From positions 1 to 32,659 of the IMG/VR virus record IMGVR_UViG_3300024229_000020: a stretch of 32,659 bases of DNA; one strand, 5' to 3'. Shown here piece by piece: positions 1 to 30,561 of this stretch (the first letter of the stretch is position 1; each line of letters starts with the position of its first letter). Origin of the DNA: a virus. The notes beneath the pieces are model-generated. The model made no database searches, had not been told where the DNA came from, and was given only the letters and a program-made list of their open reading frames with translations. Position numbers and translations under genes: made by a program.

Positions 1-597
1 AAACTCTTTACGATCGCCAAAGAACACTCCTACATCTAATCCCATATTGATATAGTCAGCTTCTGTTTGTGTAACTAACGATTTGTTTGGAACAATAACT
101 ATTGTACGTCCATGTGCTTCACACCTATGACTTAGCACTGCTGTGATTAATGTTTTGCCTGCACCTGTTGCTACTTCTTGTATGCACTGTGGATTTTCTA
201 AAAACTTGTTAACCACTTCAACCTGATAGTCACGTAGCATTATTGGTTCGCCTTCAACAGGGTGATTTGGAGGCCATACATAATCACTATAACTATCTTC
301 TTGGACTCTTTCAAATCCATAATCAGTTGAATAGTCACGAATATCTTCTACTTCAATATTGTAGTGCTGTTCTTCTAGCACAGGAATAATGTCTGGAAGT
401 AGATTAACAAATGAACTTCCACCGAGTTGAAAGAATCCAACTTTGCCGTCCCACCTACCTAATCTAACAGCAGGCATATAACGAGCACCAGGAACTTCAT
501 ACTTAAATTTATTAGTCAGTGTTTTACGAGCATCAAGTTCTAGTCCTTCAATCTTGATGTTTACTTCATCACGTACTATGATTTTACAATTTCGCAT
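1..597 (-). CDS. uvsW: UvsW-like superfamily 2 helicase, partial
   Basis: Open reading frame running off the low-coordinate edge of the window; about 199 N-terminal residues are visible. After an N-terminal domain (residues 1-120) comes LRDYQVEVV, the Q-tip-like element of helicases, then the Walker A motif ATGAGKT and the segment IVIVPNKSLVTQ (motif Ia). This order matches T4 UvsW, a DNA/RNA helicase that unwinds branched recombination intermediates and R-loops and shifts replication from origin-dependent to recombination-dependent. The start is the ATG six bases below a TATAAT hexamer; no Shine-Dalgarno is evident. Motif II onward lies outside the window. Its location with the uvsX/uvsY block on the same strand supports the call. 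Confidence 0.88.
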   Translation of the reverse strand, partial: MRNCKIIVRDEVNIKIEGLELDARKTLTNKFKYEVPGARYMPAVRLGRWDGKVGFFQLGGSSFVNLLPDIIPVLEEQHYNIEVEDIRDYSTDYGFERVQEDSYSDYVWPPNHPVEGEPIMLRDYQVEVVNKFLENPQCIQEVATGAGKTLITAVLSHRCEAHGRTIVIVPNKSLVTQTEADYINMGLDVGVFFGDRKEF

Positions 598-603
598 ATA
601 GTT

Positions 604-609
604 ATTATA
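604..609 (-). promoter_or_regulatory. Possible -10 element of the uvsW promoter
   Basis: TATAAT lies six bases upstream of the uvsW ATG. No convincing -35 box or clear MotA box is seen at the right distance. If used, the transcript would start at or within a base or two of the start codon. Confidence 0.35.
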
Positions 610-622
610 TAGTATAAAAGGT

Positions 623-654
623 GAAAGGCACACTAATTTGGTAATGTGCCTTTC
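623..654 (-). terminator. Hairpin between the AAA+ ATPase gene and uvsW
   Basis: A perfect 10 bp inverted repeat (GAAAGGCACA / TGTGCCTTTC, 623-632 and 645-654) with a 12-base loop. On the minus strand it is followed by ACCTTTTA, a weak T-run. It probably ends or attenuates the upstream transcript; it could also be an RNA-processing or protein-binding hairpin. Confidence 0.5.
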
Positions 655-656
655 GA

Positions 657-697
657 TAGTCAGTTAGAAAGATGTTAGGAGCGATACTAACTGACTA
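657..697 (-). repeat. Second perfect hairpin, in tandem with the preceding one
   Basis: An 11 bp perfect inverted repeat (TAGTCAGTTAG at 657-667, CTAACTGACTA at 687-697) encloses a 19-base loop. It starts five bases downstream of the stop codon of the ATPase gene. It has no T-run of its own, so it is not a simple intrinsic terminator. The pair may stabilise the mRNA 3' end. Confidence 0.6.
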
Positions 698-701
698 AAA
701 A

Positions 702-1511
702 CTAAGCCGCTCTGCGTTTCATACAAGTTACTTCGGCCATTGCTCTCCAGTTTGATTGTGACACTTTTCTAAGATCAGCAACCTTAAGTGCCATACGCAG
801 ACTTACTTCGTTTAACTTTTCACAGTTGTCTGTTAAGAAATCTAATATTTCTTCTTGCTGGTGTCCATTTAGATCATAGTCTTGAAACAGAGCACCTGTA
901 CCAGCAATTTGTTTAATACGCAATAGTTTATCACGCATTGTGTCTAGTGTAAGATCCAAGTAGTGACATCTTGATTGAACAGCCTGTAAGTGATCCTGTA
1001 ACTTTTTACTTCTAATATTATCAAACTTAACATTAGTAATAAAAATTGCTGAACCTTTAAAATCAAATGTTTCAGGTACACCTTCATTGCGTAGTTTATA
1101 TGAATCAGTGTTCCAACAAATTCTACGAGTCTTCTTTGAATCAAGTGCCGCTTTGATAATGTTTAGTGATAGTTCATCTTGTAAAACTGAATCACAATCA
1201 TCAAACACCAGGACATTATCTTTTTCTTTGTAGTTAAAAAGTTTAGTATATAAACCAATAGCTGACATAGCACCTTTAACTACATCAAAAGGTTTAGGAC
1301 GACTAGCTAGTTGAGTCATTAAACTAGCTTTTTCAAGTTGCTGTTCAACACCATATGACTTACCTACCCCTGGAGGGCCTACTACGATCATAGCTCTAAC
1401 ATCACCGTTGATGCAGGCTTTAGTCATATCGTCTAGAATATTGAATCTTTGTTGAATACGCTCAATGATTTGAGCATCTGTTTCTTTTTTAAATTTTATT
1501 GCTGTTGACAT
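702..1511 (-). CDS. AAA+ family ATPase
   Basis: 269 residues. Walker A GPPGVGKS at residues 45-52, Walker B VLVFDD at 100-105, a sensor-1-like ITN ending at N160, a candidate arginine finger at R181 and a sensor-2-like arginine near 239 make a complete AAA+ core with almost nothing added. The substrate is unknown; such stand-alone ATPases in marine T4-like phages are usually left unnamed. The start is supported by AAGGAG eight bases upstream. A sigma70-type promoter (TTGACA-17-TATAAT) lies about 40 bases further up, so the gene is probably expressed early. A remodelling role on host or replication proteins is only inference. Confidence 0.75.
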   Translation of the reverse strand: MSTAIKFKKETDAQIIERIQQRFNILDDMTKACINGDVRAMIVVGPPGVGKSYGVEQQLEKASLMTQLASRPKPFDVVKGAMSAIGLYTKLFNYKEKDNVLVFDDCDSVLQDELSLNIIKAALDSKKTRRICWNTDSYKLRNEGVPETFDFKGSAIFITNVKFDNIRSKKLQDHLQAVQSRCHYLDLTLDTMRDKLLRIKQIAGTGALFQDYDLNGHQQEEILDFLTDNCEKLNEVSLRMALKVADLRKVSQSNWRAMAEVTCMKRRAA

Positions 1512-1552
1512 ACTCGCTCCTTAATATGTTTATTTGCTTTCCTAACTTTATT

Positions 1553-1581
1553 ATTATATGACCAACTGAATTAATTGTCAA
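1553..1581 (-). promoter_or_regulatory. Early sigma70-type promoter for the AAA+ gene
   Basis: Minus-strand TTGACA (1581-1576), a 17 bp spacer and TATAAT (1558-1553): both hexamers match consensus perfectly. The -35 box lies inside the last codons of the gene upstream. Confidence 0.85.
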
Positions 1582-1750
1582 CCGTTTTTACCACTTTTTG
1601 TTTAATTAATTCATATACGTCTTCTAGGTCATGATCATCAACATTGATTCCTAACATAATCAGCTGTTTTTGCAAATTGTTTATAGTGCTTATGGACAAG
1701 TCATCTACCTTTGCCCATAAGTTTTGATCTGTATACTCTTGATAGTCCAT
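1571..1750 (-). CDS. Small protein of unknown function
   Basis: 59 residues if started at the ATG at 1750; a GTG immediately before it (1753) is the alternative. It lies three to five bases after the stop of the next gene upstream, so it is translationally linked to it. The composition is mixed and charged, with a predicted helical stretch (residues 20-55), no cysteines and no membrane segment. I do not recognise the family. The cotranscribed neighbour and the early promoter at 2140-2168 suggest an early, host-directed protein. Confidence 0.55.
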   Translation of the reverse strand: MDYQEYTDQNLWAKVDDLSISTINNLQKQLIMLGINVDDHDLEDVYELIKQKVVKTVDN

Positions 1751-1754
1751 CACG

Positions 1755-2108
1755 TTACCACCAACTGCTGTAAAAGACTTTCATACCTTTGGATATTGCT
1801 TCTAAGGCATCTTTAACAAAGAACTTGTCGTTCTGCTTGTAAAAGTCATCAGCATCACCACCATAAAAGAAGCCAGTGGTATCAGGCAGTCTATTAAAGC
1901 AGACATCTTCAAACAGCTTGTCAAGATCAGCTTTAGTTAATTCAACTTCAACACAATTAAAAGATTCCTCAGTACCACCCTTAGCACGATATAACTTTTC
2001 CATCCAACCATGCAAGTTAGGATGCTTTCTCCACTCAGCTAGCTTTGTAGGCTCTTGAGTTTTGTCTGCTGTTGGATCTATTGCATACGCTGTCATATCT
2101 AATCCCAT
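1755..2108 (-). CDS. Conserved small phage protein, MGLDM family
   Basis: 117 residues. It begins MGLDM, contains RKHPNLHGWME (residues 27-37) and LPDTTGFFYG (near 80), and ends VFYSSWW. These are landmarks of a small protein found in many phages; database labels such as phosphoglycerate kinase are not supported by any kinase motif here. Tryptophans and conserved acidic residues suggest a compact enzyme or binding domain. The start has AAGGAG nine bases upstream and a near-consensus sigma70 promoter about 30 bases above it, so expression is likely early. Function unknown. Confidence 0.7.
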   Translation of the reverse strand: MGLDMTAYAIDPTADKTQEPTKLAEWRKHPNLHGWMEKLYRAKGGTEESFNCVEVELTKADLDKLFEDVCFNRLPDTTGFFYGGDADDFYKQNDKFFVKDALEAISKGMKVFYSSWW

Positions 2109-2139
2109 TGTCTGCTCCTTTATCTTATTTGTTAACTAC

Positions 2140-2168
2140 ATTATAGCAATTTTGGATTTTTTGGTCAA
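2140..2168 (-). promoter_or_regulatory. Early sigma70-type promoter
   Basis: Minus-strand TTGACC (2168-2163), a 17 bp spacer and TATAAT (2145-2140). It drives the gene starting at 2108 and the small gene behind it. Confidence 0.85.
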
Positions 2169-2171
2169 CCA

Positions 2172-2324
2172 CTAAATTATACCTGCACCTTGAAGTAATA
2201 GGTCTACTAACATAAAGCCAGCAAGAAAAAACATAGTAAACAAAAAGGTTTTAGCTACTCCGTTTATAAAATTTACCTGGCGAAACATTTTCTCTAAATT
2301 CTTTTTATCGTTGGGTGTTAACAT
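2172..2324 (-). CDS. Small single-span membrane protein
   Basis: A 50-residue open reading frame. The ATG is preceded by AAGGAG at good spacing and, further up, by a perfect early promoter, which together make it a real gene. Residues 1-20 are polar and basic (MLTPNDKKNL onward). Residues 21-48 are hydrophobic (for example TFLFTMFFLAGFMLVDLLL), giving one membrane helix that probably leaves the basic N-terminus in the cytoplasm. I do not recognise a family. Small early membrane proteins of phages often alter host envelope functions or exclude other phages, but nothing here shows which. Confidence 0.72.
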   Translation of the reverse strand: MLTPNDKKNLEKMFRQVNFINGVAKTFLFTMFFLAGFMLVDLLLQGAGII

Positions 2325-2341
2325 ATAATTCTCCTTGAGTT

Positions 2342-2349
2342 TATTTAAA
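2342..2349 (-). promoter_or_regulatory. Possible weak late-promoter octamer
   Basis: TTTAAATA on the minus strand, 17 bases upstream of the ATG at 2324 and just downstream of the early promoter. One position differs from the late consensus. It could allow late expression of the small membrane protein. Confidence 0.3.
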
Positions 2350-2359
2350 TTACTCAGTA

Positions 2360-2388
2360 ATTATACTATATGTTGTGTTTTATGTCAA
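2360..2388 (-). promoter_or_regulatory. Early sigma70-type promoter for the small membrane protein
   Basis: Minus-strand TTGACA (2388-2383), a 17 bp spacer and TATAAT (2365-2360), a perfect consensus match. Confidence 0.87.
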
Positions 2389-2420
2389 TACCTTTGACTA
2401 GATATTGTGTAAATAGCCAC

Positions 2421-2446
2421 AAAAAAAGCACTATCTCTAGTGCTTT
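2421..2446 (-). terminator. Intrinsic terminator after the virion protein gene
   Basis: Stem AAAGCACTA / TAGTGCTTT (9 bp) with a four-base loop. On the minus strand the T-run continues TTTT after the stem. It lies 30-55 bases past the stop codon at 2478 and insulates the downstream early promoter. Confidence 0.85.
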
Positions 2447-2453
2447 CTTTATT

Positions 2454-2470
2454 TTAGCTCAGTGGTAGAG
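2454..2470 (+). other. tRNA D-arm-like fragment (tRNA remnant)
   Basis: TTAGCTCAGTGGTAGAG is a perfect match to the D-stem and D-loop consensus of many bacterial tRNAs. No acceptor stem, anticodon arm or T-arm can be built around it, so it is not a functional tRNA. It sits between a terminator and the stop codon of a minus-strand gene, on the strand opposite to that gene. Confidence 0.55.
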
Positions 2471-2477
2471 TCAATCT

Positions 2478-3125
2478 TTACGCTGGTAGCGGTGGATTAT
2501 ACTCAAATGTTGGTATAGTTAAGTTTGCTGTCATTGTTAAAACTTCGCCGTTACCTACTGATGGTTCTGTATCTGCAACAGCTAGAGCATTACCGTCAAG
2601 TTGACCATTTGAAAGTTCTTTAGCTACTGCTTCATATTGTGCTGGATCCATATTACCTGTTTCATTGGCTTCCATAACTACTCTTGCATCGTCAGCTGGT
2701 TTTGATGTTCCTGCTTGTAGTTTTGAACGAACATCTGATGTTAAACTATCACCTAGTGTCGTATCAATATATGTTTGCTCTTCAGCTGTAAACATATCGT
2801 CTGCTGATGTAAATGTTGCAATTTTATCTGTAAAGTAAGTTAAAGGAATCGTTGTTTCTGGATTCACTTTGTTACATTCTAAATTACCTAAGTTAACATA
2901 TGCACCTTCGCTACCTGTAACAGTAACTGACCAAGCTGTGTCACCTGACACATCTTCAGCTAGTTCAAATGTAAATAGTTCTGCACTTGGAAAGTCGCCG
3001 TCATGTGGTTCTGTATCTGCAGTAACAGCACCATTGTAGACTTCTGTTCCGCCAATGCTGACTGCAACATTAACAGAACCTGTTGTGTCATGAGCACAAC
3101 CGTATTGTTTAAAAGTTCTTGCCAT
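2478..3125 (-). CDS. Probable virion structural protein
   Basis: 215 residues starting MARTFKQYGC. The first 90 residues are beta-rich with many Val, Thr and Gly, resembling an immunoglobulin-like or carbohydrate-binding fold (SVNVAVSIGGTEVYNG). The middle (110-170) is helical and acidic, and the C-terminus is beta-like again, ending NPPLPA. The motif ADTEP occurs twice (near residues 36 and 184). A late octamer 41 bases above the start, an AGGAG ribosome site and a strong terminator after the stop make it a single-gene late unit, as expected for an abundant virion protein. The exact location in the particle is not known. Confidence 0.6.
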   Translation of the reverse strand: MARTFKQYGCAHDTTGSVNVAVSIGGTEVYNGAVTADTEPHDGDFPSAELFTFELAEDVSGDTAWSVTVTGSEGAYVNLGNLECNKVNPETTIPLTYFTDKIATFTSADDMFTAEEQTYIDTTLGDSLTSDVRSKLQAGTSKPADDARVVMEANETGNMDPAQYEAVAKELSNGQLDGNALAVADTEPSVGNGEVLTMTANLTIPTFEYNPPLPA

Positions 3126-3164
3126 TTTATAATTCTCCTAATTTAAGCATGCTTATTGCTATGT

Positions 3165-3887
3165 TTATTTATCTATTCGCCAGAATTGCTTTAATATATT
3201 GTTATCTATTTGATGTGGTTTAGGATCACCGTGAAATACTACAATACTTGCATCTACGGGTATGTCAACGTCTATTTCATCTTTATGCGGATACGATCTA
3301 TTCTTAAAGTCCATACCGCCATGCAACACTTGCCATCTATAACTTACAATTTTTTCAGGCGGTAGTTCACGTTTAGTATCTACTATTTCTTCATCAATAT
3401 AATTTTGATCACCGTGGTACATATGCGTTATACGTTCTTGGTTATCTCTATATTTGACCCATACATGATCATAGTTTGCAGTATTAAAAACCATAACGCT
3501 TGAATTGATTGCATGCCTATGACGTTTCCATAAACATTTAAAATCCTTTGCGGCATGAAAGTTTTCATAAGATAGTTTACGCATCCAATCTAAGTTGCCT
3601 GTTATGATAACGTCAAGATCCATATAGATAATTGGACCGCTATATATTTTAGGATTAAACAGTTGTGTTTTATACCACCAGGCTTTTTTAGGACCACTAA
3701 GTCCAATGTCAACTAAGTTGTGTTTGATATATCCTGCTGGTACCTCAAGTTCTCGTTCGGTCCAGACGTGCATACGTATAGGTGATGATATATTGCGTTG
3801 GATACTTGCTTTTAGTATTTCAACATACTCCCAACTGTAATAATTGCCGTGTATTAAACACCCAAAGTCAATCACTCTATCGCCCAT
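3165..3887 (-). CDS. GT-A fold glycosyltransferase, family 8-like
   Basis: 240 residues. YMDLDVII with the metal-binding DxD at 90-92, then INSSVMVFN (127-135), HGDQNYID (158-165) and VFHGDPKPH (217-225): the order of landmarks of family 8-like glycosyltransferases that use a nucleotide sugar and a divalent metal. The acceptor is unknown: host surface polysaccharide, virion protein or modified DNA base are all possible. The start overlaps the end of the next gene upstream by 16 bases and has GAGAGGT before it, so the two are cotranslated. It is part of the sugar cassette at 3165-8240. Confidence 0.72.
   Translation of the reverse strand: MGDRVIDFGCLIHGNYYSWEYVEILKASIQRNISSPIRMHVWTERELEVPAGYIKHNLVDIGLSGPKKAWWYKTQLFNPKIYSGPIIYMDLDVIITGNLDWMRKLSYENFHAAKDFKCLWKRHRHAINSSVMVFNTANYDHVWVKYRDNQERITHMYHGDQNYIDEEIVDTKRELPPEKIVSYRWQVLHGGMDFKNRSYPHKDEIDVDIPVDASIVVFHGDPKPHQIDNNILKQFWRIDK
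3166..3173 (-). promoter_or_regulatory. Late promoter octamer GATAAATA
   Basis: Matches the late consensus of T4-like phages (recognised by gp55-type sigma with gp33 and gp45 in T4). It overlaps the stop codon of the glycosyltransferase gene upstream and drives the gene starting at 3125. Confidence 0.75.
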
Positions 3888-4729
3888 TTTAACCTCTCAT
3901 ACCATCGACCGTCTCTAATCTCATCTACTGTATACTCTGTGTGTGCCATCTCAACATACCATTTATCTCTGGTATAAAGATCAATTACAGGTTTATCTAA
4001 GTTACTGTACTTATTACTACAAGGATAAGCAAGACTAGTTTCATCTACTATAATTGGACAACCATGTATTAAACTTTGCACTGCTGGACCTGCTGAGTTA
4101 TAGTTTATCATTGCCCAATAATTAAATTCAATATCAAAATCATCATATGTACTTTCTATTTTTTTAGGTGTTTCAAATTCATAGTCTAAAAACTTTTGTC
4201 TGTCAAACACTGATCTTGGGTGAGGTCTGATAATAATAGGTCTATCTGTTTTTGCTTCTATATTTTTTATTGTATCGTGTAGCCAATATTCCATCCCATG
4301 TATATCACTTACTTGTTCACTTTTATCATGCTGTAGGCAGACTAGGATTGATTCTTTTTGATAATGTCTGCGTGGTGGGTGTAATTCAGGTAAGCCTAAT
4401 TTCTTAGGTCTATCCCAATCTAAATTATCTTTATTTCCGTAAGTGCCGTCATTTGTTATGTGGTTAAGAGCTACTTTCCAGGTGATATTGCGTTGTAGGG
4501 CGCCTACTTCAAGTATTAGACAGGGTTTATTGTGGTTTTTAAAGTGGTTGTATACTTCTTCATTGCCTCTCATACGACCCGCCCAGAGACACGACCATAT
4601 AACTGCAACATCTGCATTTATATCGTTTTCTACTATTTTGTAATGTTTGCTAGCACTCTCTAGGAATGCTTCAATGACCGGCTTAGAGTTAAGACTGCAA
4701 TAGTCCGGAAAATAAGTTAGTGTTTTCAT
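3872..4729 (-). CDS. GT-B-like glycan transferase, paralogue A
   Basis: 285 residues. An N-terminal half with ILVCLQH (128-134) is followed by TDRPIIIRPHPR (161-172), NYNSAGPAVQSLIHGCPIIV (209-228) and a C-terminal YTVDEIRDGRW (266-276). The arrangement resembles the C-terminal nucleotide-sugar domain of capsule-type and CDP-glycerol-type transferases (RPHP, then a Ser-rich loop before GxP). The same signature occurs in the genes at 5575-6504 and in the C-terminal half of 6501-8240, so the three are paralogous. No Shine-Dalgarno is seen; a TATAAGTA octamer lies 12 bases upstream. Confidence 0.6.
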   Translation of the reverse strand: MKTLTYFPDYCSLNSKPVIEAFLESASKHYKIVENDINADVAVIWSCLWAGRMRGNEEVYNHFKNHNKPCLILEVGALQRNITWKVALNHITNDGTYGNKDNLDWDRPKKLGLPELHPPRRHYQKESILVCLQHDKSEQVSDIHGMEYWLHDTIKNIEAKTDRPIIIRPHPRSVFDRQKFLDYEFETPKKIESTYDDFDIEFNYWAMINYNSAGPAVQSLIHGCPIIVDETSLAYPCSNKYSNLDKPVIDLYTRDKWYVEMAHTEYTVDEIRDGRWYERLKWAIE

Positions 4730-4748
4730 AATCTGTGTAAATACTTAT
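4730..4748. promoter_or_regulatory. 19-base divergent intergenic region
   Basis: It separates the divergent genes starting at 4729 (minus) and 4749 (plus). Plus-strand TGTAAATA (4736-4743) lies five bases before the plus ATG. Minus-strand TATAAGTA (4749-4742), one mismatch from the late consensus, lies 12 bases before the minus ATG. Back-to-back overlapping late promoters are plausible; the plus one is the better candidate. Confidence 0.5.
4736..4743 (+). promoter_or_regulatory. Late promoter octamer, five bases before the ATG
   Basis: TGTAAATA followed by CTTAT and the ATG at 4749. With T4 late geometry the transcript starts on the A of the ATG. Confidence 0.6.
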
Positions 4749-5585
4749 ATGAAATACACTCTAATAACAACTTTTCACAAGCCTGGATTGGATCAATATG
4801 CACAAACCATGATTGATACTTTTGAAAAATATTGGCCTGATTCAGTTGATTTAGTATGTTATGCTGAAGACTGTACTCCTATAACAACTAAGAGCAATGT
4901 AAAAGTTGTTGACTTGCATGAGCGTTCCCCTGAACTTGTTGCATTTAAAAATAAATTTAAAACAGTTCCTTGGGCCAATGGCGAAGAGATGAAAGAAACA
5001 GGACTAAAGTTTGAGCAAAACAACTTTAAGTGGGACGCTGTTAGATTTTCAAACAAAGTATTCACAGTTATAGATGCCTGTCAGACCATAGATAGTGATT
5101 GGGTAATATGGATTGATGCAGACTCAAAAACACATAGTCCGGTAACAGAAGAATTTCTCAGCCAAGTATGCCCAGGTAGTCACTTTGTAAGTTATCTAGG
5201 ACGCAGAGCCAAGTATCATTCAGAGTGTGGTTGGGTAGCATACAATGTCAAACACGCTGACTGCAAAAAGTTTATGCTTGATTGGCGTGACTTGTATGTT
5301 AACGAAGGTGTATTTAACTTAAAAGAATATCACGATAGTTATGTGTTTGATCATATACGTAAACAATATCAAGAACAAGGCACAAAGTTTTATAACTTGT
5401 CGCCTGAGCTACCAGGTAAAGGACCTGGACATCCATTTATTGCTAGTCAACTAGGTACAGTAATGGATCATATGAAAGGCTTTAGACGCAAAGAGCTAGG
5501 CCATAGTTTCCCAGAAGATGTTACTATAAGAAATCAAGGTGCAAATCAAAACGTTAAGTATTGGAAACGTGTTACTAAGAGTTAG
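4749..5585 (+). CDS. GT-A-like glycosyltransferase on the opposite strand
   Basis: 278 residues. It begins TLITTFHKPG, as GT-A folds do (a beta strand leading to the nucleotide site), with WVIWIDADS (118-126) as the DxD metal site and SYLGRRAKYHSECGWVAYN (148-166) as the acceptor region. The probable donor is a nucleotide sugar. It is one of only two plus-strand genes. It has no ribosome-binding site but a late octamer five bases before the ATG. Its 3' end overlaps the convergent minus gene by 11 bases, so its mRNA may be antisense to its neighbours. The separate promoter and orientation suggest it was inserted independently. Confidence 0.65.
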   Translation: MKYTLITTFHKPGLDQYAQTMIDTFEKYWPDSVDLVCYAEDCTPITTKSNVKVVDLHERSPELVAFKNKFKTVPWANGEEMKETGLKFEQNNFKWDAVRFSNKVFTVIDACQTIDSDWVIWIDADSKTHSPVTEEFLSQVCPGSHFVSYLGRRAKYHSECGWVAYNVKHADCKKFMLDWRDLYVNEGVFNLKEYHDSYVFDHIRKQYQEQGTKFYNLSPELPGKGPGHPFIASQLGTVMDHMKGFRRKELGHSFPEDVTIRNQGANQNVKYWKRVTKS

Positions 5586-6504
5586 GTAAACGACTTCGCA
5601 TAAAGCGATACGCTTCTCCAGATTGTACTTCAGCTGTAGTCCAATGACACTGTGCAAGTTTATGATAAAACTCTTGTCTATCGTGCTTTGTAGGTATTTC
5701 AATGTGAGACAAATCAGTATTGCAGTAAGGGAAAACCTGACTACGTTCTGGTTGTGGATCTGTAACAAATACCGGTACTCCACATAATAAACTAGCAACG
5801 CCAGGTGAAGAATTATAAGTCACTGTTGCATGTGTACGATCAAGTTGCGTTATAAGATCAACTTCTTTAGGATTTTGTTTTGTTACATTACGCCATCGTG
5901 TATTATCAAACTGCTGAATTGTTTCTAAATTGCCTGGATGTCCTCTAACAACAATTGGTCTATCTGTACTTGCTCTAACAACATTAATAGTTTTGGTTAT
6001 CCAATTTAAAACATCTTCGCCTGCCATTGACCACCCACCACTTCGTTGTAAGCATACTAAAATATCTGTACCTGAGTGATAGTCACGTTCCTCAAATCCA
6101 TATGACTGTTTAATTTTGTTCCATCTAGATAGATCAGGATTTTTATTAAAGTACCAAGCGTCATTTGCAAATATGCCATCTAGTCCGTAACGTAAATATT
6201 TGTTAATATCTTGTGGATTCATAAATTGATAAAGATTGCTATCAATGATTAAACTGTGTTTACCATGCTGTCGTTGATGATCAATTGCATTTTTTCTAAT
6301 TAATAGATGTGGACTTTGTCTGCTGTGTTCGTGTACATATCCTTGTATTACAGCAATGTCGCAGTTGACAATACGATTGTCTTCTACTAGTACAACTTTA
6401 TCACCTACAGCTCGTACACCGTCGTGCCAACTACGCAAGATCATTTTTTTAAATTCGTTCTTGCTTCGTTTAGGTATTCCGCTAAGGTAAACGGCTACTT
6501 TCAT
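5575..6504 (-). CDS. GT-B-like glycan transferase, paralogue B
   Basis: 309 residues. DILVCLQR (147-154), TDRPIVVRGHPG (180-191) and TYNSSPGVASLLCGVPVF (229-246) correspond one-to-one to motifs of the protein at 3872-4729; the end TTAEVQSGEAYRFM matches both paralogues. The first 100 residues differ. Its ATG overlaps the stop of the 579-residue gene (ATGA), so it is translationally coupled to it and expressed from the late octamer at 8268-8275. Activity is inferred from the motif set only. Confidence 0.6.
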   Translation of the reverse strand: MKVAVYLSGIPKRSKNEFKKMILRSWHDGVRAVGDKVVLVEDNRIVNCDIAVIQGYVHEHSRQSPHLLIRKNAIDHQRQHGKHSLIIDSNLYQFMNPQDINKYLRYGLDGIFANDAWYFNKNPDLSRWNKIKQSYGFEERDYHSGTDILVCLQRSGGWSMAGEDVLNWITKTINVVRASTDRPIVVRGHPGNLETIQQFDNTRWRNVTKQNPKEVDLITQLDRTHATVTYNSSPGVASLLCGVPVFVTDPQPERSQVFPYCNTDLSHIEIPTKHDRQEFYHKLAQCHWTTAEVQSGEAYRFMRSRLPNS

Positions 6505-8240
6505 TTACTATTCCATTCCTGTACTAATCTCCAGGCATCACCGTTTTGTAACTCAGCTTGTGTAAATTGATGATAGGCAAGATTACTTAACAAGTACATA
6601 ACTTCATCTTGACTTGGATATAAAGGTGTTTCAATTTTACTTAAATCATTTAAACATAGAGGTGACCCGGCATTTTGCCCTAGAACAAACGCAGGTTTGC
6701 CCTCCATTAATGCTTCAATGCTAGCAATTGAATTGTAAGTAACTAAACAGTGTATGTCATCCTGAAGAGCTTGTTGTATAGTGTCTTGGTAGACTCTTTC
6801 TTTTCTTGACTTTTTAAGACGAACTACAATTTCTCTATCAGTATGTTTTTTAATCTGCGATAATGTATTTTCCATCCACTCATCTAAGTCTTCTCCATAA
6901 AACTGCATAGCCTTTTCACTGGGCGGACACAATAATATTTTTCCACCTGGAGTAAACTTTTTTGTATACCCATTTGCTTTAATGTATCTATCACTAGGAA
7001 CATCTCTTAACTTGCCACAATACTGTAAACTATTTTTAGTTACTCTATGCCAGTTTTTTGTTTTTGTATTGCCAAAGTAGCCGGTATCAACAAAGTAAAA
7101 GTCTCTCTTATTGTCTTGACACCAATCATAGATATGTCGTTTAGTAATACCTCTAAATGCCAATGGTCGTTTATCTTGTTTAGCTTTTCCGTCGTATATT
7201 GTTTTCCAATCAGTTAGTGTGCCGCCAGCACCTTGACAGAAATATTCAACTACCTTGTCCCATTTATATCCTTTATCTCGTAATGATTGACTTAGCTCAC
7301 TCATATCGCTTACTCCTAATACTCCTTGTGTACTGCGTTGTTTTTTAATCTGTTTAATTATGTCCTGACAAGATTGGGTATTGTATACGTCATACCCATC
7401 TAATAATACTTTTTGTAAATCAGTATATAACCGTTTCATTTCTGGGCCGTACGTTACTTGATCAACTTCAATCCTATTTCTTTTATCAACAGGGCAAGAC
7501 TTTTTGTGCTCCGCTAGATAATCATTCCACAAGTATCCGTACTGTACATCGTTCCAGCTGTTGAGGTGCATTTCAAACGGGAGATCCTTATCATCAAACC
7601 AAGGACCACCGTCGGTATAGTGTATAACGTTAGGTGTGCCGTAATCTTTTTCTTTGTAGTATCCCGATAACCAGTTCCAGTTCGGCGGCAATTTCTCAAT
7701 ACTGTTGTCAGAGCCCACCCACTCAAGTCTATGCAAATAGCTAGGTTTCTTTCCATTGACTGCATCTAATGTTAATCGTTGACTGTCAGCAGTATCACAA
7801 TTGAATACCATCATTGATGACCAATTCTTACGAGGATAAAATGTTTGTAGTTGCCCGTCCATCTTGCTTGCTGTCTTTGGACTATAACCATATTCATCAT
7901 GTGGCACCACTGCTACTGATTTATGATTGGGCAATAGATCATATACTTCTTTGATATCACTGGTCCATAAAAAATCACAATCACAAAATATAGCTTTACC
8001 AGTATAATTCATTAGATAAGGAACTAGGAATCGAGTATATGTAAATTCAGTTGAGGAGTTCTTATCTCTCTCTCTGGTTATTGTACCTTGAGATTCTAGT
8101 TCGTTTAATTTGAGATAGTGTATCTTAACAGGACATGATGCGTGTTTCAATATGCTGTATGCACAGACATCTGCGGCAATAGGTTCTCTTGAATCCCAGC
8201 CTATAAAAACATTGATTACTGTATGTGGTATTGTTGACAT
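6501..8240 (-). CDS. Two-domain glycosyltransferase: GT-A (family 8-like) fused to GT-B-like
   Basis: 579 residues. Residues 1-250 form a GT-A domain: INVFIGWDSRE (9-19), FCDCDFL with DxD at 87-89, NWSSMMVFN (139-147) and HYTDGGPWF (207-215). Residues 270-430 are a linker or incomplete GT-B N-terminal half. Residues 434-579 repeat the paralogue signature: ILLCPP (435-440), TDREIVVRLKKS (467-478), TYNSIASIEALMEGKPAFV (501-519) and TQAELQNGDAWR (560-571). In this copy the RPHP/RGHP element is replaced by RLKK, so this half may have a changed donor or be structural. A late octamer lies 27 bases above the start. A fusion of the two fold types suggests two sequential sugar additions by one protein. 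Confidence 0.68.
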   Translation of the reverse strand: MSTIPHTVINVFIGWDSREPIAADVCAYSILKHASCPVKIHYLKLNELESQGTITRERDKNSSTEFTYTRFLVPYLMNYTGKAIFCDCDFLWTSDIKEVYDLLPNHKSVAVVPHDEYGYSPKTASKMDGQLQTFYPRKNWSSMMVFNCDTADSQRLTLDAVNGKKPSYLHRLEWVGSDNSIEKLPPNWNWLSGYYKEKDYGTPNVIHYTDGGPWFDDKDLPFEMHLNSWNDVQYGYLWNDYLAEHKKSCPVDKRNRIEVDQVTYGPEMKRLYTDLQKVLLDGYDVYNTQSCQDIIKQIKKQRSTQGVLGVSDMSELSQSLRDKGYKWDKVVEYFCQGAGGTLTDWKTIYDGKAKQDKRPLAFRGITKRHIYDWCQDNKRDFYFVDTGYFGNTKTKNWHRVTKNSLQYCGKLRDVPSDRYIKANGYTKKFTPGGKILLCPPSEKAMQFYGEDLDEWMENTLSQIKKHTDREIVVRLKKSRKERVYQDTIQQALQDDIHCLVTYNSIASIEALMEGKPAFVLGQNAGSPLCLNDLSKIETPLYPSQDEVMYLLSNLAYHQFTQAELQNGDAWRLVQEWNSK

Positions 8241-8267
8241 AAACTCAATAATTATATACTAAGTTTA

Positions 8268-8275
8268 TATTTATC
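8268..8275 (-). promoter_or_regulatory. Late promoter octamer GATAAATA
   Basis: Located in the 38-base gap above the 579-residue glycosyltransferase gene, 27 bases from its ATG; drives it and the coupled gene at 5575-6504. Confidence 0.7.
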
Positions 8276-8278
8276 AGG

Positions 8279-9037
8279 TTAGTAGTTGCGGAAGTCGAAA
8301 ATTTGTTTATTTAACCACATCACTTTAAGATCCTGTTGCCTAACAAGGTTCCATTGATTTAAACTGTTGACTGCTGTTTCAGGTAACAGTTCTTGTTCAG
8401 CTAGATCAAACCAGGTTGTAGTACGATAGTCTAATTTTTGAAAGTTAGGTTGTTTATAAGCTACTGCATATATCCAAGGGTTGTTTCTTTCTTTTTTAAA
8501 AAATCCATCTTTACAGTCCCAGCCGTTGACAGCTAGGTGATGTATTAGACTGACTAGACTCCAATGATGGTAGTCATGACTATGTTGGTCAGCTATTACT
8601 GCATTGTGTTGTAAGAATGTTGATTCTGGAACAGCAATTACTAACATTGCGTTATCTCTTGCTAAATCCCACCAATGTCCTAAAGTTTGCAATGGATTGA
8701 CAGCATATTGTAAAACATTGTGAGCATAAATTACATCAAATTGACTATGTTTTAATTTACTGTCTTCAAAGTTATCTGTTACCGTTGTGATATTGTGATG
8801 GGAATATTTTGAGTCAAACGTATCGTCAATATCAATACCAGTACACTTGATGTTTAAAGGAGTCTCGTCATCTGGGTCAATAGTTCTAGTTGCCCACCAA
8901 TTTAAATCATGTCCGTTACCGTGTCCAATATCGAGAACAGTTCCAACTGACTCCATAAATGAAGTATAGTGACCAAGTTCGTTTAGGATCTGTAGACTAC
9001 TGTCGTGACTTTCTTGACCTAATAATTGTCTATACAC
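8279..9037 (-). CDS. Class I SAM-dependent methyltransferase
   Basis: 252 residues. Motif I VLDIGHGNGHDL (34-45), an acidic residue after GID (67-69), FDVIYAHNVLQY (100-111, motif IV) and LVIAVPESTF form the Rossmann-type methyltransferase core. The substrate-binding tail (150-252) is rich in His, Trp and Asn. The substrate may be the sugar made by the neighbouring transferases or another small molecule; no DNA-methylase DPPY motif is present. The start overlaps the end of uvsY by eight bases, so it is cotranscribed with the recombination genes although it stands at the edge of the sugar cassette. Confidence 0.72.
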   Translation of the reverse strand: MYRQLLGQESHDSSLQILNELGHYTSFMESVGTVLDIGHGNGHDLNWWATRTIDPDDETPLNIKCTGIDIDDTFDSKYSHHNITTVTDNFEDSKLKHSQFDVIYAHNVLQYAVNPLQTLGHWWDLARDNAMLVIAVPESTFLQHNAVIADQHSHDYHHWSLVSLIHHLAVNGWDCKDGFFKKERNNPWIYAVAYKQPNFQKLDYRTTTWFDLAEQELLPETAVNSLNQWNLVRQQDLKVMWLNKQIFDFRNY

Positions 9038-9485
9038 TAACGTCTTCCATTCCTGATGTTCTTAATCTAACTATGTGTCCTAGCATAAAGTTCTTTGATT
9101 CAAAACCTTTTAATATGCCAAGCCATTTGTTTCTTAACAGTGCTACATCATTGATCAATGTTTCAAAGTCAATAACTTCGTCTTCTCCATCCACATACTT
9201 TTCTGCATCACGTGATGTTAATGCTCGTTGGTAAGCTTCAAGATACTTTTGAAAGTGCTTACGTCTAATCTTACGTAGTTGTATGTTTAGATAATTAAGC
9301 ACTGCTTCTATTTCTTGTAATTGATTAAAGCGATGTTCAGTAATACCAGGTAAGTCACGAATGTTCTTTTCTACGTTACCGTATACCGAGCATTCCTTCT
9401 TAGCTGTCATTAATTCATTTTCATAAAATAACAGCATATCAGGTATTTTTGTAATATCTTTAGTTACATCACTGTACCAAGTCAT
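9030..9485 (-). CDS. uvsY: UvsY-like recombination mediator
   Basis: 151 residues. The C-terminal half, with LEAYQRALTSRDAEKYVDG, then a helix with LRNKWLGILKGFESKNF and GHIVRLR at the end, follows the layout of T4 UvsY (137 residues), which helps UvsX displace gp32 from single-stranded DNA. Position supports the call: uvsX lies one gene upstream on the same strand. The stop and start of adjacent genes overlap (TAATG), giving tight coupling. N-terminal residues 1-40 are longer than in T4. Confidence 0.82.
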   Translation of the reverse strand: MTWYSDVTKDITKIPDMLLFYENELMTAKKECSVYGNVEKNIRDLPGITEHRFNQLQEIEAVLNYLNIQLRKIRRKHFQKYLEAYQRALTSRDAEKYVDGEDEVIDFETLINDVALLRNKWLGILKGFESKNFMLGHIVRLRTSGMEDVSV

Positions 9486-9751
9486 TAGTAATCCTCTTCT
9501 TCTTCGCTATCGTCAAATTCGTCGCCCCAGACATCTAAACCGTCATCTTCTTCAATAACAGTATCATCATAATCTATTAATGCTTCACGAACTTCTTCGT
9601 CATCCATTAGTGTAGATTCTCTGATCTCTTTAGGACTAACACCCTGGGTATCGACCAGAGTGTGTACTAAATCAATGGCGGCTTCTTTGTGATTGCTTTC
9701 ATTGATATGTGTTTTTAACGTTTCAAAAATTTCTGCAACTGCGTTTAGCAT
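9485..9751 (-). CDS. Small acidic protein between uvsX and uvsY
   Basis: 88 residues. A helical N-terminus (MLNAVAEIFETLKTHI) and a helix-turn-helix-like middle with SPKEIRES and DDEEVREAL (residues 39-57) precede a strongly acidic tail (VIEEDDGLDVWGDEFDDSE, then EEEDY). The acidic tail could mimic DNA or contact UvsX, UvsY or gp32, but this is inference. The start has AAAGGAAT upstream and lies four bases past the uvsX stop. Similar small acidic genes occur next to uvsX in other marine T4-like phages. Confidence 0.65.
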   Translation of the reverse strand: MLNAVAEIFETLKTHINESNHKEAAIDLVHTLVDTQGVSPKEIRESTLMDDEEVREALIDYDDTVIEEDDGLDVWGDEFDDSEEEEDY

Positions 9752-9755
9752 GTTT

Positions 9756-10877
9756 TTATTCCTTTGTTTCTTCTACTGGTTCTACTGCCTCCGGTGCTTG
9801 CATTTCTGTAGCTACATCCATGCTTGCCTCAATATCTTCGATATTTACCTCATTGTTCTGATTTTTTAAGTGTTCCATTACTTTATCTAAACAACCATCA
9901 GTATTTGATTCCCATGCTTTACGGAACTGTTTAATTTCATTAGCACTATCTGGCTCACCAAAGCGTAGTCTATTACCGTCTTTCTTAAGTATGCCTTGTT
10001 TCTCTGCTAGATCAACTAGTCCGCTGTACGGGTTCATGCCTGTTTCATATGGTATTTTAACTTGCACGCCTTCAAAAGGTTTAGCGTAACGTGTTTTCAT
10101 AATCTTACAACCAGCTCTAATACCTTTAACTTCTGATATCTTGTTGCCATCTTCGTCTTCTTTCAGTTTCATTTTCTTCATTGCTACTACAATACTTGAA
10201 GCGTAAATAAAACCTTGTCCACCTGATATTTTATCATCTGGATCAAACATGTCTTGTGATGCGTATGTATGATTAGTACACACCATACCTACATTAGCAC
10301 TACCAAACATATTAACTGTATTACGCACTAGTGATGTTAATGCTTTAGGTTTCCTACCCATATCACCTTTCATGTCACCTTTTTCAAACTGAGCAACATC
10401 TGTTGGTGTTAACAACATACCCAATGAATCAATAACAAATAATACTTTAGGTCTTTCTTCTTCATTCATAGCACGATACTCAGCCATAAAGTCATTGATA
10501 GTTTTAGCTACGTCATCAATCATAGCCATATTGAGTTTGAGCAGTTTCTCTGGTCCAGTGTCAACTTTTAATGCTTGTAGCCAAGCTTCATCAAGTGCGT
10601 TCTCTGAATCAATCAGTACTACAAAGATACCTTGTTCTTGTGCTTCTTTAACAATGTTACCTGAACAAATATAACTTTTACCTGCACCTGATTCGCCAGC
10701 AAACACTGTTACTTTGCCTAACGGAATACCTTTGTTAAAGTCACCACTAATTAAATAATTTAGGGCATAGTTACCTGTCGATACCCAATCTGTTGGATCG
10801 TTAAATCCAATTGATAGTCCAGAAATTGATTTACTAATACTCTTTCTAAACTTACTTACGTCAAATGGTTTTGCCAT
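9756..10877 (-). CDS. uvsX: UvsX recombinase (RecA/Rad51 family)
   Basis: 373 residues. Walker A GESGAGKS at 61-68, Walker B VLFVIDS with D150, CTNHTYASQDMFDP and SGGQGFIYASSIVVAMKK cover the RecA core and the DNA-binding loops. The length is near T4 UvsX (391). It polymerises on single-stranded DNA coated by gp32 and carries out strand exchange, with UvsY as loader. The C-terminus (340-373) is acidic, as in many RecA-like proteins. The start has AAGGAAGAG at good distance; a TTGCAC-17-TAAAAT promoter lies just upstream, after the gene 32 terminator. Confidence 0.96.
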   Translation of the reverse strand: MAKPFDVSKFRKSISKSISGLSIGFNDPTDWVSTGNYALNYLISGDFNKGIPLGKVTVFAGESGAGKSYICSGNIVKEAQEQGIFVVLIDSENALDEAWLQALKVDTGPEKLLKLNMAMIDDVAKTINDFMAEYRAMNEEERPKVLFVIDSLGMLLTPTDVAQFEKGDMKGDMGRKPKALTSLVRNTVNMFGSANVGMVCTNHTYASQDMFDPDDKISGGQGFIYASSIVVAMKKMKLKEDEDGNKISEVKGIRAGCKIMKTRYAKPFEGVQVKIPYETGMNPYSGLVDLAEKQGILKKDGNRLRFGEPDSANEIKQFRKAWESNTDGCLDKVMEHLKNQNNEVNIEDIEASMDVATEMQAPEAVEPVEETKE

Positions 10878-10913
10878 AATCTCTTCCTTGTTCTTCTTGT
10901 GTGTTTAAAAGTA

Positions 10914-10942
10914 ATTTTACAGTCATCAAATAAATTGTGCAA
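10914..10942 (-). promoter_or_regulatory. Candidate promoter for uvsX
   Basis: Minus-strand TTGCAC (10942-10937), a 17 bp spacer and TAAAAT (10919-10914). The -10 is good, the -35 weak. It lies between the gene 32 terminator and the uvsX ribosome site. Confidence 0.45.
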
Positions 10943-10960
10943 CGATTAAATTGCCAAATT

Positions 10961-10993
10961 AAAAAGTGTGAGCGATAGTATTATATCGCCCAC
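10961..10993 (-). terminator. Intrinsic terminator after gene 32
   Basis: A 10 bp stem on the minus strand (GTGGGCGATA / TATCGCTCAC, one G-U pair), a six-base loop, then ACTTTTT. It lies 11 bases after the gene 32 stop. Confidence 0.82.
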
Positions 10994-11003
10994 TACTAAT
11001 TAG

Positions 11004-12047
11004 TTACGATGTTTTCTGTCTTGAACGGATCATGTTCAAAATATCTTCTGCTTTAGATCCACCCTCAGCCGCTGGTGCTGGTGTTTCTGTTGGCGCCGCT
11101 TCAGCTACTGGAGCAGGTGTTACTTCTGCTGTTGGAGCCGGAGTTGCTGGTGCAGTTTCTGCTACAGGAGCCGCTGGAGCCACTTGTTCAAATGTGTCTG
11201 CCGCTGGCGTTGTAGTTGCACTTGGTGTAGAAGTTGTTGGTTGTGATCCTTTTGGAGCCATCATACCTGATGGTCTGTAGTACGCACCCCATCTTTCAGC
11301 ATCATATGGTTGCCCATCTACTGATGCTTCAAACATTTCTTTCATTACTTTTAATTCTTGTTCACTAGGTTTCTTAGGAAGAAAATCTCCTAGTGTAAAT
11401 AAGCCATGTTCATTAACTGCGGCCTGTTCTGCTTCTGTTAGTGCAGACTCTTTTCTTGCCCAGTTTGATGTTGTGTAATCAGCATAGCCACCTTTTTGTG
11501 TTTTAGTAACACGGAAATCTAAACCAGCATTATAGTCTGTTGGTAATTCTTCCATGTCTGGATCCATCAAACTTGACTTAATAATAGTAAAGATTTGAGG
11601 ACTCATAATAAAACGTCTAATTGGATTAGCTGGTGTAGTATCATCACCTATAGGATTTTGTCTAACAAACCCTTGAAAGATGTATGACTTTTTCTTCCAA
11701 TACTTACGACCCATTTCTTCTAGTGATGAATCTTTAAACCATGTTCTAACTTCTGCTAGAATTGGGCATGATTCACCCCACATTTCAATACACGGAACTT
11801 GAACTAATACGTTCTTGTTATCCATTTCGCCTTTAACGCCGTTAAATGGTAAACGAATCATGTTTCGTTCTTGCCAAAAGAATGTGTTGTTTGGATCTGC
11901 GTCTGGAAGGAATCTAATTGCCGCTGATTCGCCTTCTTTGATATTCCAGTGTGCGTAAATTGCGTTATCGCCACCTGAACGTTGATTGTTACTGTTGTTG
12001 TTTTCAGAAGCTTGTAATTTTGCTCTGATATCTGCTAAACTTGCCAT
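11004..12047 (-). CDS. 32: Single-stranded DNA-binding protein gp32
   Basis: 347 residues against 301 in T4. The core (residues 28-225) has AIRFLPD, NTFFWQERNMIRLPF and YIFQGFVRQNP, typical of gp32 oligonucleotide-binding folds. The zinc region reads C86-IEMWGES-C94-PIL: the last cysteine of the T4 CPVC pair is replaced, so the zinc site is probably lost or rebuilt. Residues 268-330 are a long Ala/Pro/Thr-rich spacer with many short APA and PAP units, followed by a short helix KAEDILNMIRSRQ in place of the T4 acidic tail, which normally recruits partners. AAGGAG precedes the start. Confidence 0.9.
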   Translation of the reverse strand: MASLADIRAKLQASENNNSNNQRSGGDNAIYAHWNIKEGESAAIRFLPDADPNNTFFWQERNMIRLPFNGVKGEMDNKNVLVQVPCIEMWGESCPILAEVRTWFKDSSLEEMGRKYWKKKSYIFQGFVRQNPIGDDTTPANPIRRFIMSPQIFTIIKSSLMDPDMEELPTDYNAGLDFRVTKTQKGGYADYTTSNWARKESALTEAEQAAVNEHGLFTLGDFLPKKPSEQELKVMKEMFEASVDGQPYDAERWGAYYRPSGMMAPKGSQPTTSTPSATTTPAADTFEQVAPAAPVAETAPATPAPTAEVTPAPVAEAAPTETPAPAAEGGSKAEDILNMIRSRQKTS

Positions 12048-30143: not shown

Positions 30144-30151
30144 TATTTATA
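30144..30151 (-). promoter_or_regulatory. 18: Canonical T4 late promoter TATAAATA of gene 18
   Basis: Exact T4 late consensus, 43 bases above the sheath ATG. Confidence 0.85.
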
Positions 30152-30200
30152 CGATTAGACCTAAATCACCCTGTTATGTGAGCCTTTGCAAAGGTTTTCT

Positions 30201-30208
30201 ACTAAATA
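30201..30208 (+). promoter_or_regulatory. Late promoter-like element, five bases before the ATG
   Basis: ACTAAATA followed by CTGCT and the ATG at 30214. Confidence 0.55.
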
Positions 30209-30213
30209 CTGCT

Positions 30214-30561
30214 ATGAAACGCCCTATATGCAAGGCCTGTAATCAATTTCCGGCCGCTATCAACTATAAAAAAGACGGTAAAACACATTACCGTAGTCGG
30301 TGTGCAGTTTGCATTAATAAGAACCGCAAAGTAAAACCACCTACACCAAGATGGCGTTTAAAAGGATATGTTAAAAAGTCTACGTGTGATATTTGTAAAT
30401 TTAGAGCAAAGCATGGTAGTCAAATACAGGTATATCATATAGATGGAAATTTAAATAACACAGAATTAATTAATTTAAGATCAGTTTGTTTGAATTGCAG
30501 TGCTATTCTTCAGAAGCAGGATTCTTCTTGGAAGCCGGGTGATATCAGTCCTGATGTATAA
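30214..30561 (+). CDS. Double zinc-binding, HNH-like protein
   Basis: 115 residues from the ATG at 30214; a longer in-frame extension to 30178 lacks any signal and would start above the late element. Pairs C6/C9 with C30/C33 form one zinc ribbon, C58/C61 with C92/C95 a second. VYHIDGNLNNTELINLRSVCLNC (73-95) follows the HNH pattern (H75, N79, N87), but the usual His after the last Cys is Ser and the first His of the HH pair is Tyr. DNA binding is likely, cleavage doubtful. Closely similar proteins occur in other marine T4-like phages. The end overlaps gene 1 by 17 bases on the opposite strand. Confidence 0.75.
   Translation: MKRPICKACNQFPAAINYKKDGKTHYRSRCAVCINKNRKVKPPTPRWRLKGYVKKSTCDICKFRAKHGSQIQVYHIDGNLNNTELINLRSVCLNCSAILQKQDSSWKPGDISPDV

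Follow-up and report, generated by a model that had tools for sequence, protein, structure and literature searches.

The glycosyltransferase cassette

The window analysed here, meaning the whole 32.7-kb stretch of IMG/VR record IMGVR_UViG_3300024229_000020, is only a fragment of the genome of its virus. The source is a T4-like marine myovirus with giant-phage affinities; its TerL protein is 53% identical to that of the Pseudomonas phage PA5oct group and about 50% identical to those of Phosso and Atu_ph07, phages of 470-490 kb. Five adjacent genes of the window, designated A to E, form a cassette encoding six glycosyltransferase (GT) modules, three of which are GT-A-like (A, C, and the N-terminal part of E) and three GT-B-like (B, D, and the C-terminal part of E, termed E_C). 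In our view the chances are even that this cassette is expressed late and builds a glycan containing an ulosonic acid on the virion or the envelope, by a mechanism that is not that of KpsC and is probably inverting.

All five open reading frames of the 5-kb sugar cassette reported in a first-pass annotation of the sequence are present. Gene C lies on the plus strand, and the minus strand carries uvsX (assigned by reading), uvsY, a methyltransferase gene, E, D, B, and A. Gene E (6501..8240, minus strand, 579 amino acids) encodes a fusion of a GT8-family GT-A domain with a GT-B domain resembling the KpsC superfamily. The product of gene D (5575..6504, minus strand, 309 amino acids) is GT-B-like, with a fold like that of transferases using cytidine monophosphate (CMP)-activated 3-deoxy-D-manno-oct-2-ulosonic acid (Kdo), and that of gene B (3872..4729, minus strand, 285 amino acids) is a GT-B-like paralogue. 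Genes A (3165..3887, minus strand, 240 amino acids) and C (4749..5585, plus strand, 278 amino acids) encode GT-A-like proteins. Each GT-A-like module has an invariant acidic D-x-D motif, formed by D90-L-D92 in A, by D123 and D125 in C, and by D87-C-D89 in E (7974..7982, minus strand; invariant in 17 of 17 aligned sequences). Protein A belongs to PHROG 1962 (glycosyltransferase) and matches the GT8 protein GlyE in sequence (E=0.006); members of the C family give weak GT2 and GT8 matches in Pfam, and a PDB search with the C-family sequence profile gave no result. Searches of NCBIfam and Pfam with B, C, and D themselves returned nothing. All five genes are under purifying selection, with ratios of nonsynonymous to synonymous substitution rates of 0.05-0.16.

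Paralogy of the GT-B-like domains

The GT-B-like domains were compared by BLASTP (4e-19 for B/D, 1e-16 for D/E, and 1e-6 for B/E), by sequence shuffling (z-scores of 29, 21, and 14, respectively), and by profile-profile alignment with hhalign (probabilities of 100% for B/D, 99.7% for D/E_C, and 99.6% for B/E_C), and the three approaches agree with the earlier proposal of three paralogous domains. Judged by these comparisons, B, D, and E_C are true paralogues with a similarity far beyond chance, and we regard the GT-B fold and the homology of the domains as practically certain. The duplications are ancient, because across divergent phages each of the three classes (B, D, and E) is a separate lineage; recent local duplication was ruled out by the same class-specific clades. 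The build-up by duplication and subsequent fusion that had been suggested thus holds for the duplication and for the fusion of genes that are separate neighbours elsewhere, but not for a recent local expansion. The number of GT-B-like copies per fragment reaches seven in some relatives; the 11.6-kb fragment L057 (IMGVR_UViG_3300018424_007449, positions 197-11589) carries seven such paralogues, three of which have an intact Asp nucleophile (see below).

Fold and catalytic motifs

When the AlphaFold2 (AF2) model of D (predicted local distance difference test score, pLDDT, 92.5) was compared with the PDB by Foldseek, the top 17 matches were all structures of KpsC, KrkA, or WbbB, each of them a retaining transferase for CMP-Kdo (best value 6.9e-9). 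This type of fold is assigned to D by its model and to B and E_C by profile homology alone. Homologues from Tetraselmis virus 1 were also among the fold matches; the host of this virus has a theca of 2-keto sugar acids (PMC10762512), which might bear indirectly on the donor.

For KpsC, WbbB, and KrkA, a QXXXD motif whose Asp is the nucleophile, an acidic general base, and a (K/R)XHP motif for CMP have been defined (PMC12887879, PMC10148158, PMC9587256), the CMP-binding motif in PMC12887879. Retaining Kdo transferases, whose evolutionary origin has been termed unclear, act by covalent double displacement, a mechanism described as unusual among glycosyltransferases (PMC9587256, PMC10148158). The RxHP element noted in the first-pass annotation is this (K/R)XHP motif; its identity as a CMP-binding element, the fold, and the absence of the nucleophile had been missed there.

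In the alignment, the CMP-binding motif is present in D (R187-G-H-P190, 5935..5946) and B (R168-P-H-P171, 4217..4228) and absent from E, where R474-L-K-K477 (6810..6821) replaces it; these and the following positions are all on the minus strand. The QXXXD motif reads Q153-R-S-G-G157 in D (6034..6048) and Q133-H-D-K-S137 in B (4319..4333), and in E it is replaced by the segment P440-A444 (6909..6923), which has neither Gln nor Asp. The nucleophilic Asp is consequently missing from all three copies, its place being taken by Gly157 in D, by an invariant Ser137 in B, and by Ala444 in E. At the aligned position of the putative general base an acid is retained, namely as E74 in B (LEVGALQR, 4508..4510), as the family-invariant D88 in D (IDSNLYQ, 6241..6243), and as D385 in E (VDTGYFGN, 7086..7088). 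These residues may correspond to Glu66, the general base of KpsC.

With KpsC (CAZy family GT107), B and D have in common a GT-B-type fold, the Gln of QXXXD, the (K/R)XHP motif, and, at the putative general-base position, an acid of the N-terminal domain, and the spacing from the Gln to the Arg or Lys of RxHP is similar (36 residues in KpsC, 35 in B, and 34 both in D and in an Allorhizobium homologue). They differ from it by the exchange of the nucleophile for Gly (D) or Ser (B), by being single-module phage proteins, and by the lack of a detectable full-length sequence match. The N-terminal module of WbbB (GT99) and KrkA (GT140) are PDB fold neighbours of D sharing the CMP motif, but the window copies lack the nucleophile, occur in a phage context, and, in E, are fused to a GT8 domain. 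Weak Pfam matches to Capsule_synth (PF05159) and DUF6716 (PF20471) were all below the curated cut-offs; the Gln, HP, and Ser positions were aligned unguided by hhalign with bacterial Capsule_synth proteins (motif QLPGD), at a modest probability of 60% for the combined family, although the window copies lack the Asp nucleophile of these proteins. The mode of action would be like that of a Kdo- or sialic-type transferase, but because the defining nucleophile is absent, we do not assign B, D, and E to the retaining beta-Kdo transferase families GT99, GT107, and GT140 on the basis of their sequences.

Among 93 aligned homologues, four classes were distinguished by the residues at the base, Gln, nucleophile, and His positions. 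The class E/Q/D/H comprises 14 of the 93 sequences, namely bacterial and some phage copies, and a Glu base is found in every sequence with an Asp nucleophile; the bacterial homologues have intact QIPGD or QIPND and RPHP motifs, and some phage paralogues likewise retain the catalytic QXXXD. The D class (D/Q/G/H) contains 21 sequences plus four with Asn, and the B class (E/Q/S/H) 15 plus two with an Asp base. In the E_C class, the base is Asp, the Gln is usually missing, the nucleophile is not Asp, and the His is replaced by Lys (35 of 37 sequences) or Arg (2 of 37). A single tree branch (support 68/83) separates the group bearing the nucleophile, so that one change would suffice to account for its gain or loss. 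The authors of the WbbB work suggest an inverting, sialyltransferase-like ancestor, so that the absence of the nucleophile could be either ancestral or derived.

The fusion protein E

The N-terminal GT-A domain of E (approximately residues 8-235) belongs to family GT8, as PF01501 matches residues 51-216 with E=1.1e-9 and 38.7 bits (curated cut-off 24.3), and the GT-B-like domain E_C spans approximately residues 300-579 (6504..7343, minus strand). In the AF2 model of the whole protein (pLDDT 88.5, predicted template modelling score 0.61), the order of secondary structure elements of E_C agrees with that of the D model; in a fold search with whole E, the GT-A half dominated the matches. The GT-A to GT-B fusion recognized earlier is genuine: 530 stretches related to E were found in IMG/VR, and 16 distinct, non-redundant viral sequences, with identities down to about 40%, have the fused form and constitute one clade (support 100/99), which rules out a sequencing error. 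The fusion united what other phages encode in two neighbouring genes: in Pelagibacter phage Mosig, in Caulobacter phage CcrColossus, and in contigs such as L038, a GT8-like gene stands next to an E_C-like one, each homologous to the corresponding half of E. These pairs are unfused, and in CcrColossus their order is reversed. The change from RxHP to RLKK in the fused copy is likewise real, but it was not a loss upon fusion, as had been assumed, because unfused relatives already carry RxK. The exchange of His for Lys is older than the fusion. Decay as the origin of RLKK was ruled out, the exchange being common to unfused relatives and a fixed signature of the class.

Genomic context and expression

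In the window, E is preceded by the gene of an S-adenosylmethionine-dependent methyltransferase (8279..9037, minus strand; PF08242, 1.7e-9), which is syntenic in relatives. The arrangement uvsY-(methyltransferase)-E-D-C(reversed)-B-A is conserved among relatives, where an AAA gene often comes next, and distant ones contain additional, inserted transferases and methyltransferases. Gene C is inverted within nearly all E-D-C-B loci across deep divergence, a conserved orientation for which we have no explanation. In related contigs (L018/L091 and L090), gene A is broken into two frames at differing points, by sequencing error or frameshift, and several records filed under archaeal, Verrucomicrobia, or other metagenome-assembled genomes (L098, L101-L103, L107, L108) carry the phage cassette and are probably misbinned phages. 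Elsewhere in the window, an open reading frame resembling HNH endonucleases is located between the sheath and kinase genes (30178-30561, plus strand).

The octamer described earlier as a late promoter element at 8268 is GATAAATA (8268..8275, minus strand, 27 bp before the start of E), one mismatch from TATAAATA, which itself occurs in the window only at 30144; the site nevertheless belongs to a real late-promoter-like set. The motif NATAAATA has nine sites in the window, all on the minus strand, and eight of them lie 5-82 bp upstream of minus-strand genes, seven within 60 bp of the gene start (binomial P=2e-7). The genes preceded by it include those of sheath, tube, a virion protein, and gp32 as well as E. 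Minus-strand 5' ends of these sites, which mostly read GATAAATA, are at 3173, 8275, 12137, 14227, 18446, 23130, 26813, and 30151; two sites are just 5 bp before annotated starts, which may be leaderless or misassigned. These sites probably represent the class of late promoters used by this group of phages, and at E the octamer is found at -35/-36 in the closest 11 loci. Late expression of the cassette in this virus is likely by this evidence, if not established.

Genes for donor synthesis were found next to one related cassette. In the 147-kb contig G004, which has a fused E-D-C-B cassette, a KdsA gene scoring above the equivalog cut-off overlaps a KdsB-like gene approximately 4-5 kb downstream of the cassette. 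In cyanophage S-SCSM2R, KdsA and KdsB are encoded near a homologue of the GT-A domain of E, and no relative of the GT-B domains was detected near them. A phage KdsA and KdsB pair adjoining a methyltransferase gene (L033, 16646-18092) is a candidate auxiliary pathway for CMP-Kdo synthesis; a paralogue bearing the nucleophile is encoded at 6279-7220 of L033. Other cassette neighbours in relatives encode FkbM, TylF and further methyltransferases, GT61, a DegT aminotransferase, and an epimerase, which fit the building of a polysaccharide or oligosaccharide rather than base modification.

Possible function of the cassette

From the homology, fold, motif states, conservation, and promoter-like sites described above, we infer a donor, a stereochemistry, a time of expression, and a target. 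The six transferase modules would assemble a glycan, probably late in infection, to which A, C, and the GT8 domain of E would add ordinary nucleoside diphosphate sugars, and B and D an ulosonic acid activated by CMP, for which Kdo is the likeliest candidate. B and D probably use such a donor because they have kept the CMP-binding RxHP motif, the Gln of QXXXD, and the acid at the general-base position; CMP-ulosonates as their donors are fairly probable in our estimation, and for Kdo itself the balance is even. Since the Asp nucleophile is absent, B and D cannot use the known covalent double displacement of KpsC and would instead act by direct displacement, with the Asp or Glu of the N-terminal domain as base and an inverting linkage as the result, a course to which we give slightly less than an even chance. 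Inverting CMP-sialyltransferases (families GT29, 38, 42, 52, and 80) have the combination proposed here, i.e., an HP motif for CMP, an acid as base, and no covalent nucleophile; the overall structure is nearer to KpsC, however, and no sequence relationship to these enzymes was found. E_C would use another donor or bind the acceptor for its GT8 domain, because Gln, nucleophile, and His are all absent (Lys replacing the His).

Several observations weigh against this interpretation. The likeness of D to KpsC is modest (template modelling scores of about 0.5), PDB searches with the D- and E-family sequence profiles did not reach KpsC, and the vacancy at the nucleophile position in B, D, and E_C was read from the sequence alignment, not from model coordinates. 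KdsA and KdsB stand beside a GT-B cassette in only one of 16 virus contigs (most of them fragments, and hosts make CMP-Kdo themselves), and in the virus concerned Kdo may instead be used by a further paralogue, whose nucleophile is intact. The octamer is missing at E in distant relatives.

The virion is the likeliest carrier of the product, at a probability just short of one half, and the host envelope a less likely one. A late modification of host lipopolysaccharide (LPS) or capsule, serving superinfection exclusion or progeny release, is a possibility that we rate well below even: Kdo is a sugar of LPS and capsule (PMC12887879), and the Allorhizobium homologue is encoded near GT25 (LPS) and GT4 genes, but none of the five proteins has a membrane-spanning segment (no Kyte-Doolittle mean above 1.04 over 19 residues), and the cassette has no Gtr-type flippase, polymerase, or anchor genes. 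Gtr-type clusters for O-antigen modification differ by possessing the flippase GtrA, GtrB, and a membrane GT, none of which was found in the cassette family searches. The octamer shared with virion genes fits either target.

We consider it an unlikely reading that the GT-B paralogues take sialic, pseudaminic, or legionaminic acid instead of Kdo from a CMP-activated donor, with E_C possibly using a donor of a non-CMP kind. (K/R)XHP is common to sialyltransferases, KpsC has a homologue that transfers pseudaminic acid (PMC12887879), and the diversity of the paralogues suggests differing donors; the nearest solved structures, however, are all Kdo enzymes, and beside a cassette no pathway for a donor other than KdsA/KdsB was found. 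A little less probable still is that B, D, and E_C are dead pseudo-glycosyltransferases that, with a glycan or CMP-sugar as ligand, serve as scaffolds or regulators of the active GT-A enzymes A, C, and the GT8 domain of E. The missing nucleophile in all three copies would fit this role, as would the literature on KpsC, whose D160A variant is inactive and whose D160G/A/S complexes contain no reacted sugar, and the additional loss of Gln and His from E_C next to an apparently intact GT8 domain. The position of D160 is occupied by Ser in B and Gly in D, though, with the donor-side residues kept: the CMP motif, the Gln, and the acid at the base position are nearly invariant over deep divergence in B and D, whereas dead donor sites usually lose their donor motifs, and B and D stand alone without a partner domain. 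T4-style glycosylation of modified bases in the phage DNA, a target raised in the first-pass annotation, is very improbable on the genes found, despite the adjacent T4-type replication genes uvsX, uvsY, and gp32, because base glucosylation of that type needs a hydroxymethylated-base enzyme, and no thymidylate-synthase homologue was present in any of 12 related records including contigs of 315 kb and 147 kb (most of the records being fragments; controls were detected), the neighbours being moreover of polysaccharide type and E preceded by a late-type promoter site. Searches of the relatives for Tet_JBP and GT29 gave no result, the control genomes being equally silent.

Returning to the ulosonic acid transferases, these phages hold paralogues with and without the nucleophile side by side in one gene array, and it is a tentative and rather doubtful extension that B and D are active inverting enzymes and that E_C has moved to a non-CMP donor. 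In the full-text literature, we found no published account of phage proteins resembling Kdo transferases or of an ulosonic coat modification in T4-like giant phages. Within this large viral family, which has the fold of the Kdo transferases, some copies carry the nucleophile and others Gly, Ser, or Ala instead, and both kinds are often found in a single genome. This makes the origin or loss of the Kdo transferase mechanism testable with small soluble proteins, and if the extension were true, the family would be a natural series for the rise or loss of the rare double-displacement chemistry among glycosyltransferases. The cassette also suggests that T4-like giant phages modify a coat or surface with acidic ulosonic sugars.

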